Shown in pieces: positions 11,180 to 50,918 of a stretch of 64,000 bases of DNA; the first letter of the stretch is position 1; each line of letters begins with the position of its first letter. The notes under the pieces are model-generated. The model made no database searches. It was not told the DNA's origin and worked only from the letters and a program-made list of their open reading frames with translations. The DNA lies in the NCBI GenBank assembly GCA_015061115.1, contig SUXE01000007.1, positions 57,132 through 121,131 of the forward strand. The letters are read 5' to 3'. Origin of the DNA: Bacteroidales bacterium (GTDB lineage: Bacteria; Bacteroidota; Bacteroidia; Bacteroidales; Paludibacteraceae). The position numbers and the translations under genes are program-made.

Positions 11180-12745
11180 ATGGATAATATATTGATTATT
11201 GTAATTGTGGCGATTGTGGCTTTGGCAATAGGTGCTGCCATAGCATTTTTGATAAACAATTCGCTTTTGAAATCCCGTACAGACGGAATTATTAATCAGG
11301 CCCATAATGATGCTAAGAAAATCACAGACGAGGCTAATGTAAAGGCTGAAAAAACAGCTTTAGAGGGTCGTGAAAAGTACAACAAGTACAAGACAGAGTT
11401 CGAAACTCAGGTAAATCAGCGCAATCAGAAATTAATGCAGGCTGAGCAGCGTGCAAAACAGCGTGAGGAGCAGTTGGCTCGTCAGCAGAGTGAATTGCAG
11501 CGTGCAAAGCAGAGTGCAGAGCAGTCTCGTGAGGCTCTTGACAAGCAGAAGGAGGCTCTTGAGGAGCAGCGTCATGAGTTGGATAAGGTGATCCTACGTC
11601 AGCAGGAGCAGTTGGAGACTATCTCTGGCTTGTCTGCAGCAGAGGCTAAGGAGCAACTTATCAATTCGTTGAAGGATGAGGCTCGTACAAATGCGATGAG
11701 CTACGTCAACGACATCATGGAAGAGGCTAAGATGAATGCCAACAAGGAGGCTAAGAAGATTGTTATCCAGACAATCCAGAGAGTGGCTTCTGAGGCTGCG
11801 ATCGAAAACTCTGTGACTGTTTTCAATATTGACAGTGATGAGGTAAAGGGTAGAATCATCGGACGTGAGGGTAGAAATATCCGTGCTTTGGAGGCTGCCA
11901 CAGGAGTTGAAATCATCGTTGATGATACTCCAGAGGCAATTGTCCTTTCTTCTTTTGATCCGGTTAGACGTGAGATCGCTCGTCTAGCGTTGCATCAGTT
12001 GGTGACTGACGGACGTATCCACCCAGCTCGTATCGAGGAGGTTGTTGCCAAAGTTAAGAAGCAGGTTGAGGAGGAAATCGTTGAGACAGGTCGTCGTACT
12101 ACAATCGACCTTGGTGTACATGGTCTACATGCTGATTTGATCCGTTTGATCGGTAAGATGAAATACCGTTCATCATATGGACAGAATTTGTTGCAGCACG
12201 CACGTGAGACAGCTAACCTATGTGCTGTGATGGCATCTGAACTTGGTTTGAATTCTAAGAAAGCAAAACGTGCAGGTTTGCTTCACGATATCGGTAAGGT
12301 TTCTGATGAGGAGCCAGAATTGCCACACGCAATCCTTGGTATGAAGATAGCAGAGAAGTACAAGGAAAAACCAGAAATCTGCAATGCTATCGGTGCTCAC
12401 CACGATGAGATCGAGATGGAGACATTGCTTGCTCCAATCGTACAGGCGTGTGACGCTATCAGTGGCGCGCGTCCAGGAGCTCGTCGTGAGATTGTAGAGG
12501 CATACATCAAGAGATTGAACGATTTGGAGAAACTTCCATTGTCTTACCCCGGCGTTATCAAAACATACGCTATCCAGGCTGGACGTGAGTTGCGTGTTAT
12601 CGTAGGTGCAGATAAGATCGACGACAAGCAGACTGAAACATTGTCGGCAGAAATCGCTAAGAAGATCCAGGATGAGATGACTTATCCAGGTCAGGTTAAG
12701 ATCACTGTCATCAGAGAGACTCGTGCAGTAAGTTTTGCTAAATAA
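11180..12745 (+). CDS. rny: Ribonuclease Y
   Basis: Membrane-anchored endoribonuclease that starts mRNA decay. The 521-residue protein shows the full family order. First is an N-terminal membrane helix ([20 protein letters not shown]). A long coiled coil follows (about residues 35-165, rich in [16 protein letters not shown]). Then come the KH domain, with [19 protein letters not shown], and an HD domain with metal-binding HD in [10 protein letters not shown] and AHHDEIE. It is in the core block after zapA, with ffh starting 42 nt downstream. Codon use matches its housekeeping neighbours. Confidence 0.97.
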
Positions 12746-41624: not shown

Positions 41625-42398
41625 TTATTTTTCCCACCTCAACCTATAAATATAGCCTGGCTCTGGATTGGTCTTTGTATGATAGTATAGTTTATGATCT
41701 TTGTCAAATTCCACGGATTCAATGAACTCGAAATCTCCATCTATTTGAGACACGATCTTTTTCCTTTCGAAATATGCGGGCTTTGCGTATTCATTGCTTT
41801 TGTAAGACAATAAAACTCTAAAACCGAGCACTTCAATAGGTGTGTCGAGTCTTGAACTTATCCATGGCTTGGCTGTGTTGTCAGTGTCTTCATTGGTTGT
41901 TTTTATACTGATTACTGTACAATCATTGTATTTTAATGGGTGATTGAATGTTATTTTCGCCGTATCCCATTCATTTTTGTTTTCGTTGTGGATCAGAGGA
42001 CTAATCTTTTGTGATACTGATTCGATTTTAGGTGGAATCGCACCTGTCCATTTGAAATTATATGGTATTTCTGTGAGAAACAACCTTTTGCATTGTATTG
42101 TGCGGTAAACTTCAAATGTGGATTTCACTCCATCGTTGGATTTGAAGATTAGAAAAGTGGATATTCGCTTATAATCTTCAGAGGAATTCTCATCAATAAA
42201 CTTGTTGATTACTCTTATTATCTGAAAAACAATGATGAGTAGACATAAAATAACAATCGTTAACGCAATTATTATAGCTGTTTTGTTGTTACTAAAACAC
42301 ATTACTAATCCTGCAATAGAACATATTGATCCTGTAGTACCCAAACAACTACCTAAATATATTCTAGTGAAGTTGAATACTTTTTTGATATTATGCAT
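41625..42398 (-). CDS. Two-TM, beta-rich membrane protein of unknown function
   Basis: A 257-residue protein with two N-terminal membrane helices (YLGSCLGTTGSICSIAGLVM and TAIIIALTIVILCLLIIVFQ). After them comes a cytoplasmic or periplasmic beta-rich domain, ending KLYYHTKTNPEPGYIYRLRW. I do not recognise the domain with certainty. The layout (two helices plus a beta-rich domain) resembles the S-2TMbeta/Cap15-type effector proteins of CBASS defense, but no cyclic nucleotide synthase is next to it. It has an exact -7 box (42451-42459 complement). Base composition is more AT-rich than its neighbours, which suggests transfer. Confidence 0.6.
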   Translation of the reverse strand: MHNIKKVFNFTRIYLGSCLGTTGSICSIAGLVMCFSNNKTAIIIALTIVILCLLIIVFQIIRVINKFIDENSSEDYKRISTFLIFKSNDGVKSTFEVYRTIQCKRLFLTEIPYNFKWTGAIPPKIESVSQKISPLIHNENKNEWDTAKITFNHPLKYNDCTVISIKTTNEDTDNTAKPWISSRLDTPIEVLGFRVLLSYKSNEYAKPAYFERKKIVSQIDGDFEFIESVEFDKDHKLYYHTKTNPEPGYIYRLRWEK

Positions 42399-43880: not shown

Positions 43881-45167
43881 TTACAACGCTATGATCAGAA
43901 GCAGGATGTTGAACGCGCAAATGACTCCGAATCCTATGCAAAGATCCTTCAACAGTTTTTTGCCTGAGAAGAATATTCCATACAGCATTTTGACGACGTT
44001 GTTGCTTATGATCGCCTGGAATGTGGCAAGGATCAGAAGTGCGTCAGACACGTTGTGCTGGGTCTGGAACAGGTTGATGATGAACGGATTGATGTCCGTC
44101 ACACCAACTATGATTGAAAGTATGCGTAATCCGCTGTCGCCGAAATAAACCAAAGCGTAAGTTGTCACCAACGTGAATGCTATGAATAGGATAGCGAAAA
44201 GAATGGCGACTTTGAATTCCAACGGATTCTTCTCCTCCTCTTCCTCAATTTTTGTGTCTGAGCCATTCTTTCCTGCCTTTGGCTTCTGACGATAGAAGAA
44301 GTATGCTACAACGGCAGATACCACGATCATGATGGCAAACAGATACCAGTATTTGAGCATCAGATTATAGTTGAAGATTCCTAAAAGGATAAATATCTTG
44401 AAATACATCATTGTGATGGCGCAGAAGATAGCCGCGATGTATTCCTTCAAATCACCTGAATGATCCTTCGCTTTCTTCGACAATATGATGCATGTGGCTG
44501 TGCTGCTGTATATTCCGCCAAGAATACCTGTGATGATGACGCCTCCGTTGGGAAACAGATATTTCTTCACCAGATAGCTGATATATGAAATTCCTGAGAT
44601 GACGACGGTGGCAAGCCATATTGTGTATGGTGTCAGACCAGTTCCCTCAATCAACTCATTGTTAGGAAGGATAGGAAGGATGACGCCTGCGATGATAAGG
44701 AATTTGGCAAGGTTGATAAACTCCTCATCGTTCATCTTCTTTGTAAACTCGGTGAATTTGTCTTTCATTTCCGCCAAGACAAGCACAGTGACGACCACGA
44801 GGATAGCCAGCGTGATGGACGACACATATATAATCGGAGCGATGCAATAGGTGATCAAGGCGATCATGATCGACGTGATTCCTGTACGCTGACGTATTAA
44901 TAGTTTGTGGGCATACGCGATGCTGAGGAGCAAAGACAATGTTGCTCCGCCATATAGGAAAGGAGTGAGACTTCCGTTTCCTATCACATAAAGCACATAA
45001 CCAAGTATTCCAATCAGAGTGAAAGTTCTGTCCGAACCGAAAGTGTGCAATATATCGCTGTTTTTTTCATATAGTTTTCTCTGTGATAACCCGATCACCA
45101 GTGACATCAGAGCAACAACAGCAAAATTGATGATGTCAGTTGAGAATATATTTGTAATCGATTCCAT
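43881..45167 (-). CDS. MgtC/DUF4010-family inner-membrane protein
   Basis: A 428-residue polytopic membrane protein with about twelve predicted helices. The N-terminal third resembles the MgtC/SapB fold (VALMSLVIGLSQRKLYEKNS, RTFTLIGILGYVLYVIGNG). The C-terminal two thirds correspond to DUF4010 (GGVIITGILGGIYSSTATCI and FIINLFQTQHNVSDALLILA). A charged linker of acidic residues (TKIEEEEEKNP) separates them. Role unknown; some relatives are linked to magnesium stress or membrane transport. No strong operon partner. Confidence 0.85.
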   Translation of the reverse strand: MESITNIFSTDIINFAVVALMSLVIGLSQRKLYEKNSDILHTFGSDRTFTLIGILGYVLYVIGNGSLTPFLYGGATLSLLLSIAYAHKLLIRQRTGITSIMIALITYCIAPIIYVSSITLAILVVVTVLVLAEMKDKFTEFTKKMNDEEFINLAKFLIIAGVILPILPNNELIEGTGLTPYTIWLATVVISGISYISYLVKKYLFPNGGVIITGILGGIYSSTATCIILSKKAKDHSGDLKEYIAAIFCAITMMYFKIFILLGIFNYNLMLKYWYLFAIMIVVSAVVAYFFYRQKPKAGKNGSDTKIEEEEEKNPLEFKVAILFAILFIAFTLVTTYALVYFGDSGLRILSIIVGVTDINPFIINLFQTQHNVSDALLILATFQAIISNNVVKMLYGIFFSGKKLLKDLCIGFGVICAFNILLLIIAL

Positions 45168-45473
45168 ATCCGTATGAATTATAAATGTTCTTGAATCCTT
45201 CTAAACAAATATAGCGGATATTTCTCTTAATGCCAAGGAAAGCGTCGAAAAAGTGGGGCGACGGGAGGAATGTTATATTAATGGATTTTGGGAAAAATCA
45301 CAACTCTTGCCACACGAAAATGAAGAATTCAAATTCGTGTGATACTTTTTTCTGGGCATGCTATTCTATATTAAAATGACTTCTTTTGAATTTCATGTGG
45401 AATTTAAAACAATAAATCGTATATTTACATGATTTAAGGTATTGGCTACGGCATAAGAAAAAGAGAAAGGTTT
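45168..45473. other. Spacer before the Fic gene, with hairpin repeat copy 1
   Basis: No gene. The notable content is the 34-bp hairpin repeat at 45311-45344 and a weak -7-like TATATTTAC near 45420, which differs from the consensus at one base. Confidence 0.5.
45311..45344. repeat. 34-bp hairpin repeat, copy 1 (left of Fic)
   Basis: CACACGAA...TTCGTGTG with a 15-nt middle containing GAAGAATTC. It matches the copy at 46549-46582 in 32 of 34 positions, same orientation. Confidence 0.85.
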
Positions 45474-46538
45474 ATGACGCAACAAGACAAAGAGACACTG
45501 ATTACATTGCTGAATCAATATAGGGATTTGGGCATTTCGGAACAGATAGATTTTCAAAAATTCTATCTCTATTCCATTATTGCTCATTCCACAGCCATTG
45601 AAGGCAGTACAGTGACAGAGGTGGAAGCTCAACTCCTTTTCGACGAGGGTATCACCAGCAGCAAACGTACAATACAGGAGCAGATGATGAACCTCGACCT
45701 CAAGACCGCATACGAATATGGAATGAAATGGGTCCAACGACACGATCCAATAACTGTGGATTGGCTTATATCGTTGGCTGCTAAAGTAATGGAACATACT
45801 GGAAGCGAATACAACACAATGACAGGCAGTTTTTCATCGGCACGAGGTGAGTTACGCAAATTGAATGTGAGTGCTGGGCTTGGAGGCCCGTCGTATATGT
45901 CATACCTGAAAGTGCCGTCACGCCTAGCCGCTTTTTGCGATGAACTTAATAACCGTCGTATATTGGTCGACAAGACAGACCCTTGTGCTCTCTACGAACT
46001 CAGTTTTTGGGCTCACTACGAATTGGTGACCATTCATCCATGGGCAGATGGCAATGGACGTACCAGTCGTTTGCTGATGAATTTGTTGCAAATGGAATAC
46101 GACCTTTTGCCAGTGAGAGTGCTCAAAGAGGATAAAATATCTTATATCCAGGCACTTGTCGACACAAGAAATAATGAAGATATCAGCATCTTTGTCGATA
46201 GCATGACGCAGTTGCATATTGAGCACTTGCGTAATGACATAGACATATTTCTTAAATCGACTGAAGAGGGAAATATTGACGAGAGAAAAGAAACTACCCT
46301 GAAAAATGTCGTAGAAAGTTCGCAGAAAAGTGTGGAGAAAAGTGTGGAGAAAAGTGTGGAGAAAATAATTAAACAGATAGCGGAAAATCCGAAAGTGACT
46401 GTAAAAGAACTTACTACAATTGTTGGCTTGTCTCGTCGCGGTGTGGAGAAAAATATAAAGAAGCTACAGGAATGTGGCATCATCCGCCGTGTTGGTCCAG
46501 ATAAAGGCGGCCATTGGGAAATTATAAAACATGAGTAA
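45474..46538 (+). CDS. Fic-domain protein with C-terminal winged helix
   Basis: Fic proteins attach AMP or another nucleotide moiety to target proteins. The 354-residue protein has the intact active-site motif HPWADGNGRTSRLL (about residues 185-198; His, Asn and Arg present). Its N-terminal segment STAIEGS fits the class II inhibitory pattern [S/T]xxxE[G/N], suggesting self-inhibition. A linker contains SVEK three times, from the 12-bp tandem repeat at 46325-46360. The final 65 residues form a winged helix (PKVTVKELTTIVGLSRRGVE), which may allow autoregulation. The gene is bracketed by two 34-bp hairpin repeats. Confidence 0.92.
   Translation: MTQQDKETLITLLNQYRDLGISEQIDFQKFYLYSIIAHSTAIEGSTVTEVEAQLLFDEGITSSKRTIQEQMMNLDLKTAYEYGMKWVQRHDPITVDWLISLAAKVMEHTGSEYNTMTGSFSSARGELRKLNVSAGLGGPSYMSYLKVPSRLAAFCDELNNRRILVDKTDPCALYELSFWAHYELVTIHPWADGNGRTSRLLMNLLQMEYDLLPVRVLKEDKISYIQALVDTRNNEDISIFVDSMTQLHIEHLRNDIDIFLKSTEEGNIDERKETTLKNVVESSQKSVEKSVEKSVEKIIKQIAENPKVTVKELTTIVGLSRRGVEKNIKKLQECGIIRRVGPDKGGHWEIIKHE
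46325..46360 (+). repeat. 12-bp tandem repeat in the Fic gene
   Basis: Three perfect units of GAAAAGTGTGGA, in frame, encoding the repeated SVEK linker. Gain or loss of units keeps the frame and changes linker length. Confidence 0.9.
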
Positions 46539-46548
46539 GAATTCCTAT

Positions 46549-46582
46549 CACACGGAAATGAAGATTTCAAATTCGTGTGATA
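46549..46582. repeat. 34-bp hairpin repeat, copy 2 (right of Fic)
   Basis: CACACGGAAATGAAGATTTC followed by AAATTCGTGTGATA. It begins 10 nt after the Fic stop; the palindromic arms could also act as a terminator, though no T-run follows. Confidence 0.85.
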
Positions 46583-46602
46583 GGGGAGTGTGATGGATGT
46601 TT

Positions 46603-47154
46603 TTAATCTAGGGATTCAGGCTCTTCCTCATCTTGACTTTCTGGTGTTGAGGCATCGAAAGTTAGAAAGATCTCTAGAAAAGCAGTTTCTCTGAAGAAAT
46701 AGTTTGGATCGTCAATTAGTTTGTCTTCCATAAAATGGAAACCCCAATTGGCGTATTCTTCCATGGTTTGCATGAGCATATCTACCGCTTTGCGTGATGT
46801 TATTTCTCCTTTTTCCAATGCGATGAAGTCGATATCAGTACGTGCTATCAATGCGGTGAAAATAAATTCTCTAAGTTTGGGGTAGGCTTTTCTTCCTTTG
46901 ACGGAGTTTAAATTTCCCCAAAATTGTATAGGTTGACCGAATGTTTTGCGTTTTTGTGCATCCTCATTCAGTTTGCGTCTTTGATTGGAATATAGTCCGA
47001 TGAAAAATGCAACAATGAAAATTTCATAACCACCTCCATATATTTTGCCACGATCTTCACGAAGATTTGTTGCACCACGACCATAGTCGCAAAAATTTTT
47101 TATGATGTTATCTTCGTATCTTTTTTCCCATTGAGGGTTACGTGTAGCCCACAT
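46603..47154 (-). CDS. Uncharacterised 183-residue protein, small partner of a two-gene unit
   Basis: I do not recognise this family. The protein opens with an Arg/Trp-rich segment (MWATRNPQWEKRYEDNIIKN). A conserved-looking core follows (GKIYGGGYEIFIVAFFIGLY, then QRRKL and FGQPIQFWGN). After that comes a helical part, and an acidic tail (PESQDEEEPESLD). The core helix EIFIVAFFIGLYS is hydrophobic but short and flanked by charges, so a soluble protein is more likely than a membrane one. It lies 58 nt downstream of the 682-residue gene on the same strand and is AT-rich in the same way, so the two form a unit. Confidence 0.75.
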   Translation of the reverse strand: MWATRNPQWEKRYEDNIIKNFCDYGRGATNLREDRGKIYGGGYEIFIVAFFIGLYSNQRRKLNEDAQKRKTFGQPIQFWGNLNSVKGRKAYPKLREFIFTALIARTDIDFIALEKGEITSRKAVDMLMQTMEEYANWGFHFMEDKLIDDPNYFFRETAFLEIFLTFDASTPESQDEEEPESLD

Positions 47155-47212
47155 GTCATTATATTTTGAATCTTAGAAAATAGGATGTCACAAATTAGTA
47201 TATCTATATAAA

Positions 47213-49261
47213 TCATAAACTACTATAATCATCTGTTAATTTTTTTAACTTAATAATATCAACTTCATATTCATCATACAATTTCTTTTCATATCTTTCC
47301 TTGTACCAAACGCTAATTAACTTTTGGGGGTTCCATGCATTAAATCCCAAACCAAAGACAAAATATGGAGCACATGCTATAAGTGCTGCTATTATCCATG
47401 TATACGGTTCCATTTTATCCCATCCATACAGACAGATGCATCCGATTATTATAATTAGTACTATAAACATTATTGTGAATGGTACCCACTTTAATTTTTT
47501 TATTCTATTTCCTACTTTTTTATCTGCTTTATTTTTTCTTTTGTTTATATCATCTATTTGATCTTTGATTCTATTTTTTTCTTTTAATTTAGATTCATTT
47601 AATAGATTTGACAATTGATTTTTTTCAAATTCTTTTTGTTTAATCTGATCGTTTTTTTTTGTTTCTAAATCTGTTTTTTCTTGATTTTTCTTCTCTACTT
47701 CTTTTTGTAATCTTTCATTTTCTTCTTTTTGTTCTTCTGCTTTTCGACGTTCCATTTCTCTTTCTCGAAGATATCGTTCTGTGTCGGCCATAGTAATAGT
47801 TTCTAGCGTCTCATCAATGTTTAAATCCGAAACTTCTTCTGGTTTTCTCACTTTTGTCCTCAGTTCTGCTAATTCTGCAATAATAATCTCTTCGGATTTT
47901 GCTTTTTCTGCAATTTCTTGTTTTATTTTTTCATATTCTTGAGATACAGAACCGACGATTTGCGTTGATAAAACAATTTGAGCTTTGGTGACAATATTAA
48001 ATGATTTTGGATATTTATCTCCACCAAAACCTTTATTTAATTTAAACCATAATTTATTAGTGATATAATCTAATGTTGTCGCTAAAGGAACGTTTCCATT
48101 CTGCTTTATCCCAGGATGAAATGCTACAGCCATAGTTGTTGAATTACCAGTTAGTAAAATGCACTTTGATTTTTCAAATCCTGATACGTTATCTTTTCTA
48201 ATCATACTTACATAATTCAACAATTTTAAGCTCCAGTCAATATTTCGTTGAGGTAAATCGTTAGAAAGATTATTCAGATTTTCATCATAATAGATGTTGT
48301 AATTAGAATTTGTCTTAAAAAGATTATCTCCATTTTCTTCAAATATAGAATTTTTTTTCAATAAGTTATAAAATGCTACTTTTTTTGAGATTACATCTGT
48401 TTTATGTTCGCATCCTTGTACTATGAATGTCATTGCGATATTTGAGTAATCTAAGTTGTCTTTACCGTCAACAATTCTTTCTGCGATATTAAAGAATTTA
48501 TCAATTTCGTACTTTACCAAATCAAAATACATGATTTTTATTAGTTGTTTGTGTGCTTTTTGGTTTATTTCTTTAACTAACTCGAAGAAATCGTTAAATA
48601 ATTGTTGATATAATTCTCCATTGTATCCAGCCATATGAAACAATATTTCCTGCTCAACAAAAACTATAAATTCATCATTCCAACTTCCTATTTCATTTAG
48701 ATTGTCATTATACTGAATACCAGTGTATAAGACAACACCTTCCTTTATCGTTTTTAAGAGTGCAGACAATTTGGGATCGTTTTGCGTTTCAATAATAAAA
48801 GAACTAATATAATTGCCGTATTTAACATCATTTTCATCTATAAGGAACCCACAAAATGATTGAAATAGATTTTCTTTGTCTTCATTTGTTAATTTATTTG
48901 ATGTTTTTTTTTCTACATAAGAGACCAATTCTAAAAAAACAACTTCATGGCTAGTCTCTATTTTTTTAATTTCTTGATCATTCACCTTTTGAAGCGTATT
49001 GTCTTCTTTTGGGTAATATTTATAATTATCTTTTCGACAAATTTTTTTCAAGATGGTTTCCACTACATATTCTGGTATTTTGAATTCAAATTCGTCCTTC
49101 AAAATATTTTTTATTTGTGTTGGGGTACAAACTGTTAGATGATTATTATATATTATGCTTTTGGCAAATTCGCATAAGATTGTCATGACATCACTACGAC
49201 CTTCATTGTAAAGGTTTCTGAATAGAGCTAATGATGCAATTCTTCTTTTGTTATTGTCCAT
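47213..49261 (-). CDS. Uncharacterised 682-residue protein: possible degenerate PIN-like core, coiled coil, two C-terminal TM helices
   Basis: No family recognised with confidence. Residues 1-85 look like a winged-helix or small helical domain (NLYNEGRSDVMTILCEFAKS). Residues about 195-385 contain FIVFVEQEILFHMAGYNGEL and later KCILLTGNSTTMAVAFHP. These are spaced like the first and last strands of large PIN-like nucleases, but the usual first Asp is replaced (VEQE in place of LDTN-type), so activity is doubtful. Residues about 440-590 are a Lys/Glu/Gln coiled coil (REREMERRKAEEQKEENE). Two membrane helices follow (about 592-613 and 620-641) and a charged 40-residue tail. The gene is very AT-rich against its neighbours, a sign of transfer. 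Confidence 0.8.
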   Translation of the reverse strand: MDNNKRRIASLALFRNLYNEGRSDVMTILCEFAKSIIYNNHLTVCTPTQIKNILKDEFEFKIPEYVVETILKKICRKDNYKYYPKEDNTLQKVNDQEIKKIETSHEVVFLELVSYVEKKTSNKLTNEDKENLFQSFCGFLIDENDVKYGNYISSFIIETQNDPKLSALLKTIKEGVVLYTGIQYNDNLNEIGSWNDEFIVFVEQEILFHMAGYNGELYQQLFNDFFELVKEINQKAHKQLIKIMYFDLVKYEIDKFFNIAERIVDGKDNLDYSNIAMTFIVQGCEHKTDVISKKVAFYNLLKKNSIFEENGDNLFKTNSNYNIYYDENLNNLSNDLPQRNIDWSLKLLNYVSMIRKDNVSGFEKSKCILLTGNSTTMAVAFHPGIKQNGNVPLATTLDYITNKLWFKLNKGFGGDKYPKSFNIVTKAQIVLSTQIVGSVSQEYEKIKQEIAEKAKSEEIIIAELAELRTKVRKPEEVSDLNIDETLETITMADTERYLREREMERRKAEEQKEENERLQKEVEKKNQEKTDLETKKNDQIKQKEFEKNQLSNLLNESKLKEKNRIKDQIDDINKRKNKADKKVGNRIKKLKWVPFTIMFIVLIIIIGCICLYGWDKMEPYTWIIAALIACAPYFVFGLGFNAWNPQKLISVWYKERYEKKLYDEYEVDIIKLKKLTDDYSSL

Positions 49262-49670
49262 AATTTTTGTCTGTTGAAATTAATTTCTATTTGTTGATTG
49301 AATTTGTTTTCTAGATATGCATTTCTTTTAATCGCATGGATAAATATTTTTGTTTTTAGATATGCATACTTATACTATGCAAATTTCATATAATTTTTCG
49401 AATTTCACAAGCAAATTTTTAGAGAATCAAATAAATGAGATGCGGTGTAATTTGCTCAGAACTCTTCAAATTTGAATTTAGCTGAATTATCTATTATTGC
49501 GGATGCTTTCTGCTTAGAAAGAGAATTTAAACGTTTTTCACTATTCCTTCTCTGCTATTTTATATTTAATTAACAATTCCTCTCAAAAAAATAATTGGTT
49601 TTGTTTGGATTTAAAAATATTTTGTGTAATTTTGACACGAAGTTAAAAAGAAACCAAAAATCGAAGAGTT
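49262..49670. other. AT-rich spacer between the two-gene unit and pncB
   Basis: No gene seen. It contains an 11-bp direct repeat TAGATATGCAT at 49312-49322 and 49357-49367, start to start 45 bp. The second copy runs into TGCATACTTATACTATGCA, an imperfect palindrome (49363-49381). Their place upstream of the minus-strand unit fits an operator. The right end carries the pncB promoter. Confidence 0.5.
49604..49634 (+). promoter_or_regulatory. Consensus promoter of pncB
   Basis: TTTG (49604-49607), exactly 19 nt, TAATTTTG (49627-49634). Full match to the Bacteroidetes consensus; start near 49641, leader about 30 nt. Confidence 0.8.
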
Positions 49671-50918
49671 ATGAATACAATAATTACATCTCTACTGGAG
49701 ACAGATCTTTACAAGTTCTCTATGGGTCAGGCTATTTTCCACCAGTTCCCAGGATATAAGACTACCTGGACTTTCAAATGCCGTAACAAGGATGTGAAAT
49801 TCACTCCTGAAATGGTGGAGGAAATCAAACGTCAGTTGCAGGCTTACTGTAATCTCCGCTTCACTGAGAGTGAATTGGAGTACTTGAGATGCATCGGCGC
49901 AAGAAAGGATGAAAATGGTAATATCGTCAAGAAGGGCTGGATTAAAGGTTCTTATGTTGACTTCTTACGTATATGGCGTCCAAGATTCGAGGATTTCATA
50001 ATCAACGACCAGGCTGAATGTGGATTGAATATTGAGGCGTGTGGCACTTGGCTTAACACTAGTATGTATGAGATTCCTACTCTTGCTATCGTCAATGAGG
50101 TATATTTCCGCATGGCTTACGACTATGAGGAACTTAAAAAACAATTCTGTCGCAAGCTTGATGAGAAAGTGAATCTTTTGGAGCAGGATATATATGAACT
50201 TGGAGCATTCTCTGAATTTGGCCTCCGTCGCAGATTGTCTGCCGAGTGCCAGGAGATGGCTGTGATGGCTTTGAAAAATGCGAAGATGAACAACAAATCT
50301 ATCTTCGTGGGTACAAGCAACGTCTACCTAGCTCGCAAATATAATCTTATCCCTGTGGGTACTATGGCTCACGAGTGGATCATGTGCGTAGGTCAGGGCA
50401 ATAGAGCTGTCAATCCTGCTTATTCAAATCTTTACGCTCTACGCTCTTGGGTGACTGAATATAAGGTGCAGAACGGAACGGCTCTTACTGATGCGATCAC
50501 AACTGATTGTTTCTTGCGTGATTTCGATGAGGAGTTCGCTACTGTGTTCAGCGGTGTTCGTCACGATTCTGGTGATCCGTTCGCATGGGGCGACAAGATG
50601 ATCGCTCACTATCAGAAGCTTGGCATCGACCCTACTACAAAGACTCTTCTCTTTAGCGACAGCTTGAATTTTGAGAAGGCTACAAAGCTAAAGAAGTATT
50701 TCGAGGGCAGGGCAAAGACTGCTTTCGGTATCGGTACATTCATTGCCAATGACACTGATGTGCCACCGCTAAATATCGTGATGAAGACTACTTTATGTAA
50801 TGGTGGCGACGTTGCAAAGATTTCTGACACTCCTGGTAAGGGTATGTGCAAGAATCCTGACTATGTCGACTATTTGCAAAGAGCCATCGACTGGAGAATG
50901 AACCACGCTGAAATGTGA
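49671..50918 (+). CDS. pncB: Nicotinate phosphoribosyltransferase
   Basis: First step of the Preiss-Handler pathway: nicotinate plus PRPP gives nicotinate mononucleotide. The 415-residue protein has the family opening LLETDLYKFSMGQAIFHQFP. Other landmarks are EFGLRRRLSAECQEMAVMAL, GTSNVYLARKYNLIPVGTMAHEW read in parts (the active-site His region), and FSGVRHDSGDPFAWGDKMI. All conserved blocks are intact. It begins an NAD salvage cluster with the NUDIX gene 25 nt downstream and the NadE-PncA fusion after it. Confidence 0.96.
   Translation: MNTIITSLLETDLYKFSMGQAIFHQFPGYKTTWTFKCRNKDVKFTPEMVEEIKRQLQAYCNLRFTESELEYLRCIGARKDENGNIVKKGWIKGSYVDFLRIWRPRFEDFIINDQAECGLNIEACGTWLNTSMYEIPTLAIVNEVYFRMAYDYEELKKQFCRKLDEKVNLLEQDIYELGAFSEFGLRRRLSAECQEMAVMALKNAKMNNKSIFVGTSNVYLARKYNLIPVGTMAHEWIMCVGQGNRAVNPAYSNLYALRSWVTEYKVQNGTALTDAITTDCFLRDFDEEFATVFSGVRHDSGDPFAWGDKMIAHYQKLGIDPTTKTLLFSDSLNFEKATKLKKYFEGRAKTAFGIGTFIANDTDVPPLNIVMKTTLCNGGDVAKISDTPGKGMCKNPDYVDYLQRAIDWRMNHAEM

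Follow-up and report, generated by a model that had tools for sequence, protein, structure and literature searches.

A candidate membrane-tethered defence gene beside a 5'-truncated pbeD in a variable chromosomal slot of a Bacteroidales bacterium

Genes and base composition of the locus

The window analysed here is a stretch of 64,000 nucleotides from a Bacteroidales bacterium of the Paludibacteraceae. A sequence-only reading of it had singled out two adjacent, AT-rich minus-strand genes without a recognised family, next to a Fic gene, and had proposed that they form a two-gene, membrane-tethered unit of the kind seen in phage defence. Both open reading frames are present exactly where that reading placed them, at 46603-47154 (183 aa) and 47213-49261 (682 aa), and the Fic neighbour at 45474-46538 on the plus strand was confirmed. 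The long helical or coiled-coil stretch of the large protein, the two motifs quoted from its core and its two C-terminal hydrophobic segments (residues 593-611 and 622-640) were found as well. Both proteins have relatives, at 29-41% identity for the large one and 49-91% for the small one, which puts the observation beyond chance. The features discussed below are, in window coordinates:

43881-45167, minus strand: left core flank of the slot, gene for a 428-aa membrane protein; present in 7 of 9 genomes of the genus and flanking the slot in sister species G001-G004
45474-46538, plus strand: Fic/Doc protein with an HTH tail (PF02661, E=1.8e-15)
46544-46584, no strand: terminator-like hairpin between the 3' ends of Fic and pbeD (inverted repeat I3, direct repeat D2)
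46603-47154, minus strand: 183-aa orphan pbeD relic, the DndE-type last gene of a Pbe operon (49 homologous loci)
46603-47167, minus strand: block of DNA homology to intact pbeD (blastn alignments ending at 47167; tblastn covering pbeD 5-191)
47168-49534, no strand: replaceable block, the large gene with its upstream region (GC 0.278; from sister comparisons)
47213-49261, minus strand: 682-aa stand-alone candidate anti-phage effector (open reading frame; alignment of 11-15 relatives)
47342-47398, minus strand: predicted TM helix 2, residues 622-640 (Kyte-Doolittle 2.04; passing the detection threshold in 13 of 15 members)
47429-47485, minus strand: predicted TM helix 1, residues 593-611 (Kyte-Doolittle 3.02; counterpart in 15 of 15 relatives)
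47492-47944, minus strand: helical/coiled-coil linker, residues ~440-590 (DSSP of the model)
48032-48679, minus strand: PIN-like core, residues ~195-410 (AlphaFold2 model, family columns, weak Foldseek PIN matches)
49671-50918, plus strand: right core flank, pncB-like nicotinate phosphoribosyltransferase (product name from sequence; present in 7 of 9 genomes of the genus)

The large gene is as AT-rich as described: its GC content is 0.282, compared with 0.405 for the whole window (z = -3.3 in the distribution of 2-kb windows). The small gene has a GC content of 0.382. The two genes share a strand and are 58 bp apart; the gap in base composition between them is a first sign that they may have separate origins. 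The replaceable block runs from the pbeD junction to the point at which homology to the sister species resumes.

A partial copy of the hairpin that separates Fic from the small gene lies beyond the opposite end of Fic, at 45302-45344. The two copies form 43-bp direct repeats (45302-45344 and 46540-46582, 86% identical) that bracket the Fic gene and are possibly terminators or traces of a Fic insertion. Within the Fic protein, QKSVEKSVEK repeats precede the HTH tail (window positions 46289-46372), and their copy number varies among sister species, being higher in G002 and lower in G003 and G004. Outside the slot, a 257-aa open reading frame on the minus strand (41625-42398) has N-terminal hydrophobic segments and belongs to no recognised family.

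Identity of the small gene

Relatives of the small protein, 49-91% identical to it, are encoded at 49 Bacteroidales loci in a scan of the genome collection. At most of these loci the homologue, usually 191 aa long, closes a conserved run that consists of a ~756-aa helicase, PbeA (PADLOC E=0), a 77-aa protein, a ~724-aa PbeC-like ATPase (8e-21) and pbeD, in the operon order pbeA-pbeB-pbeC-pbeD. Upstream of the run lie SspC and SspD, or SspD with a GIY-YIG protein and DndB, or a histidine kinase with a response regulator. PbeD has been described as the counterpart of DndE that goes with the CxC ABC-ATPase PbeC (PMC10853773), and in the archaeal system protection needed all four pbe genes (PMC6459918). 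We call the small gene pbeD on the basis of its position in these operons and of PMC10853773. The claim that neither protein has a recognised family stands for the large protein; for the small one it holds in library searches, but the operon context identifies it. Neither the small protein nor its intact homologue matches any PADLOC family, though the neighbouring PbeA and PbeC do.

Most blastn alignments to intact loci end at 47167, and the breakpoint 47167/47168 corresponds to codon 5 of pbeD. Because DNA homology to intact pbeD ends at this codon, the native start of the gene has been lost. The rest of the system is missing too: pbeB and the modification genes are absent from the window locus, a match to PbeC is absent from the organism's own genome (99.8% complete), and the search of that genome for PbeA returned a single 29% match over the helicase region and none that is close. 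With pbeA, pbeB, pbeC, the modification genes and the native pbeD start all gone, no working Pbe system is encoded. Compared with PbeABCD, the small open reading frame is homologous to the last gene of the Bacteroidales operons, but everything that precedes it there is lacking here; it is the 5'-truncated, leftover 3' gene of an Ssp/Dnd-Pbe system. Matches to the small protein were absent from plasmids. Its AlphaFold model has a pLDDT of 54 and was left out of the fold search.

In a true two-gene system the large membrane protein would have captured pbeD as a DNA-binding adaptor. The shared strand and the 58-bp spacing fit such a pairing, and the small open reading frame has stayed intact: it contains no stops and is 91% identical to its closest relative, so that expression behind the large gene is conceivable. 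Pairwise dN/dS is likewise very low (w 0.03-0.05 where computable), but synonymous sites are saturated and the ratio is therefore silent on the time since truncation and on recent constraint. The gene-neighbourhood survey argues against the pairing. pbeD stands beside none of the 14 other aligned relatives of the large gene, the large gene occurs at no other pbeD locus among those examined, and about 17 other loci carry a similar pbeC/pbeD 3' remnant, mostly behind unrelated defence genes. The proposed two-gene unit did not survive this comparison, and we regard capture of pbeD as an adaptor as highly improbable. The large and the small protein are members of two unrelated families, and the small gene is very probably a relic without function in pairing with the large one.

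The large protein and its family

Relatives of the large protein are 25-41% identical to it and occur in ~1% of sampled Bacteroidota genomes. They are also found on plasmids of the Enterobacterales Citrobacter, Pantoea and Duffyella, in four viral contigs and in one Helicobacter prophage, which is the sole prophage entry of the phage collection to encode one. Among 5,426 complete E. coli genomes, 4 carry a relative. The E. coli relative, WP_136676584.1, lies at the edge of a lambdoid prophage, adjoining ssrA, and this prophage homologue shares 87% DNA identity with the Citrobacter plasmid copy. Another relative adjoins a prophage repressor gene of the cI-like (XRE/S24) type, one plasmid relative adjoins an integrase, and one is carried by a conjugative element. 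At L123:1037-9270 a relative is found inside a Type III RM operon in the order Mod-[PDC-S02]-gene-Res, where PDC-S02 is of the PD-(D/E)XK type. Settings of this kind are typical for anti-phage genes, and also for other genes of mobile elements.

The second half of that statement has to be weighed. Many relatives lie on plasmids, on prophages or, in one instance, on a conjugative element, and this would suit a role in mobile-element biology other than defence, such as plasmid or prophage maintenance, conjugation or control of lysogeny. Against it, the family also occurs inside the Type III RM operon, the other occupants of the window's slot are Wadjet and DUF262/HEC-06, and no conserved antitoxin-like partner accompanies the gene. 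We consider a non-defence role unlikely; from its context, the large gene is probably a defence gene.

The family has no match in Pfam (PIN families included), NCBIfam, PHROGs or PADLOC 2.0.0; it may possibly be mentioned in later lists of predicted defence genes or on bioRxiv. Three candidate matches were rejected as coiled-coil/TM or chance matches that are not common to the family: a GDSL lipase in the PDB (E 0.008), the mitochondrial calcium uniporter in Pfam (1.1e-5, below the cut-off) and DUF2207_C.

One architecture is kept in the 15 aligned relatives, with a winged-helix-like N-terminus, a PIN-like core, a coiled coil and one or more C-terminal TM segments. The alignment covers residues 1-480; the coil and TM part beyond it diverges in sequence and retains its layout. 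The winged-helix assignment is read from the sequence pattern. Conservation of the C-terminal segments agrees with the membrane anchoring proposed for this protein. The parts on either side of the TM segments, and with them both termini, are probably cytoplasmic, because the loop between the segments is about ten residues long and the tail is rich in lysine.

The core had been described as spaced like a PIN nuclease with lost acidic residues. Its motif 1 is FVEQE (FLDTE in the family), motif 2 lies around Tyr245 and Glu252, and motif 3 is ILLTGN. Motif 1 is mostly LDTE among the relatives and VEQE in the window protein, and its first acidic position is Asp in 11 of 15 sequences, Glu in three (the window protein has Glu) and Ser in one. 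In motif 3 most sequences have TG or SG and then a residue that is not acidic; L067 and L075 are the two that have Asp. The three to four acidic residues of a PIN active site are thus not all retained; Glu205 and Glu252 are nonetheless invariant, and the positions invariant in the first 11 relatives also include Asn214-Gly215, Arg355 and Trp405.

An AlphaFold2 model, for which five sequences were used, has low overall confidence (pLDDT 59.5, pTM 0.40), with local pLDDT values of 75-93 over most of residues ~200-310, where the order of strands and helices is PIN-like. Foldseek against the PDB returned, among the matches listed, two with a target TM-score of at least 0.5: 2dok, the PIN domain of EST1A, and 3ix7, which we take to be a PIN/TRAM protein. 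The second match in BFVD, A0A8S5M7Q9, is annotated 'PIN like domain'. The E-values of these PIN matches, 0.39-1.3, are not significant. Searches with 11 members and the family consensus gave no significant Pfam PIN match, and HHalign against PIN_8 and PIN gave no signal above reversed controls, in a comparison of low power, whose PIN_8-PIN positive control was weak and in which some PIN rows were in the wrong frame. Relative to known PIN nucleases (PF01850, PF18476 PIN_8, EST1A), the family is alike in the order of strands and helices and in the position of motif 1 (hhhLDTE); it differs in having no significant profile match, in having mostly lost the third acidic residue, and in adding a wHTH-like N-terminus and a C-terminal coil with TM helices. 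Of the earlier PIN proposal, the plausible topology and the eroded acidic residues stand, and the fold itself is not established. On balance we lean towards a PIN-type fold.

Whether such a fold would still cut is a separate matter. A pseudo-PIN protein without nuclease activity might sense phage at the membrane and either disrupt the membrane or act as a scaffold. The missing motif 3 Asp (13 of 15 sequences), the replacement of the motif 1 Asp by Glu or Ser in four, and the conserved TM segments and long coiled coil are consistent with this reading. The invariant Glu205 and Glu252, together with an acidic motif 1 residue in 14 of 15 sequences, speak against it and indicate that an active site may persist. 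We place an active nuclease somewhat short of an even chance, and regard the inactive alternative as a real possibility that is a little weaker still.

For the large protein we infer defence function, topology, sensing and nuclease activity along the following lines. The two C-terminal helices would hold the protein in the inner membrane, with its bulk in the cytoplasm; the long coiled coil, together with the winged-helix-like domain at the N-terminus, might sense or transmit infection; and nucleic acid at the membrane would be the target of the PIN-like core, which would most likely cleave RNA or incoming phage DNA. A works-like analogy is SNIPE, a GIY-YIG nuclease bound to the membrane, which cuts the DNA of phages as it is injected (PMC13190303). 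Both are single-gene, membrane-tethered and nuclease or nuclease-like, and relatives of the 682-aa protein lie on prophages and plasmids. In SNIPE the TM helix is N-terminal and is combined with DUF4041 and a GIY-YIG domain, whereas the 682-aa protein has a PIN-like core and C-terminal TM segments and is not a member of that family.

The chromosomal slot and pbeD tails elsewhere

The genes lie in a slot between the 428-aa membrane-protein gene and pncB, and both flanks are common to sister species. In G001 the flanks are separated by a gap of ~0.4 kb, and Fic, pbeD and the large gene are all absent. Three sister species have Fic among the variable contents of the slot: G002 and G004 carry it together with a four-gene Wadjet system (JetA E=7e-193 in G004), and G003 with a DUF262/HEC-06 gene (HEC-06/Orf5 E=2e-206). 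The slot therefore has different occupants in sister species, and in relatives known defence systems of other types stand between these flanks, in line with the defence setting suggested for the locus.

The sister cassettes keep 10-35 codons of the pbeD 3' end at one edge, directly behind JetD in G002 and G004 and behind the DUF262 gene in G003; at the window locus pbeD is nearly whole. At the other edge, G003 keeps ~58 codons of a HIT-domain gene, whose last codons are matched more weakly in G002, G004 and G008. A HIT tail is not detectable at the window locus. As far as the accounts of them go, the core defence hotspots of Pseudomonas aeruginosa (cDHS, PMC10250203) and the variable defence locus of Streptococcus suis (PMC5398294) are alike in being core-flanked slots whose occupant varies and is usually a defence system. 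Unlike the hotspots as outlined in those sources, the cassettes here keep short 3' tails, of the HIT-domain gene at one edge and of pbeD at the opposite one, in several genera.

Remnants of pbeC/pbeD that lack the 5' part of the operon were found at ~18 distinct Bacteroidales loci, a count that excludes loci merely cut by a contig end and comes from a survey queried with pbeD, which is biased toward 3' remnants. Their breakpoints range from inside pbeC to the final codons of pbeD, and several remnants are only 10-60 codons long. Most of these 3' tails stand behind other defence genes. Among the genes in front of them are those for BREX (BrxL, PglZ), Wadjet, Hachiman HamAB, DUF262/HEC-06, a ThsB-like TIR protein, a PDC-S49 protein of the KAP type, a DdmD-like helicase and DNA methyltransferases, and at several loci an HNH gene and a HIT/methyltransferase gene lie on the far side. 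When PbeC was used as the query instead, in 295 genomes of the order, no locus clearly kept pbeC without pbeD. Set against the 3' remnants seen, and with small numbers, this led us to reject the explanation of 3' retention as a pure search artefact.

Several individual loci deserve mention. In the window's own genome a ~50-codon pbeD tail lies directly behind the end of a BREX operon (PglZ, BrxL) at G000:C23:27093-27251 (L115, ~12090-12260), and such a tail is likewise found behind BREX in a sister species, at G001:C32 (L116); the chromosomal place is not that of the slot. A recurrent pair on the far side of many of the cassettes consists of an HNH_4 endonuclease gene and a gene that looks like a SAM-methyltransferase/HIT-hydrolase fusion (L029:239-2166; L013, L015, L024, L045, L054, L117, L140 and L143); the pair may have a role of its own in defence or exchange. 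At L141:5769-8239 (= L003/L028), pbeD without its first codons follows genes for a Type I specificity protein, a DUF262-type protein and a 488-aa protein whose N-terminus resembles a true PIN domain (MNILLDTNIIIPLED).

The account of the locus that we judge quite likely is that the large gene is a horizontally mobile single-gene anti-phage module that now occupies the slot, and that the small gene is a Pbe leftover. An Ssp/Dnd-Pbe phosphorothioate system would once have stood in the slot, and its pbeD would have been broken off at codon 5 as the block seen today came in. More tentatively, and with considerable doubt, we suggest that the pbeD tail and the 3' end of the HIT/methyltransferase-fusion gene may serve as transferable homology arms by which whole Bacteroidales defence systems are swapped, the tails being scars of exchange and the 682-aa family a new defence type so carried. 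On this doubtful proposal the systems exchanged would comprise Pbe, Wadjet, Hachiman, DUF262, TIR/ThsB, KAP and the membrane PIN-like gene, as well as BREX with the pbeD arm alone, and homologous recombination at the tails would be the route. The idea of defence hotspots is already known; a limited literature search found no description of a pbeD/HIT tail bracket.

Conservation of the 682-aa family extends from Bacteroidota to Enterobacterales and Helicobacter; the family occurs in settings of the anti-phage type and has no PADLOC model. This breadth, these settings and the missing PADLOC match together make it a candidate defence of a new type, encoded by one gene and tethered to the membrane. 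With a close homologue already present in E. coli prophages, testing it in the laboratory would be simple. The pbeD tails can also serve as a tag in the search for more defence genes as yet unrecognised, in that the upstream neighbour of an orphan 3' end has often been a defence system.
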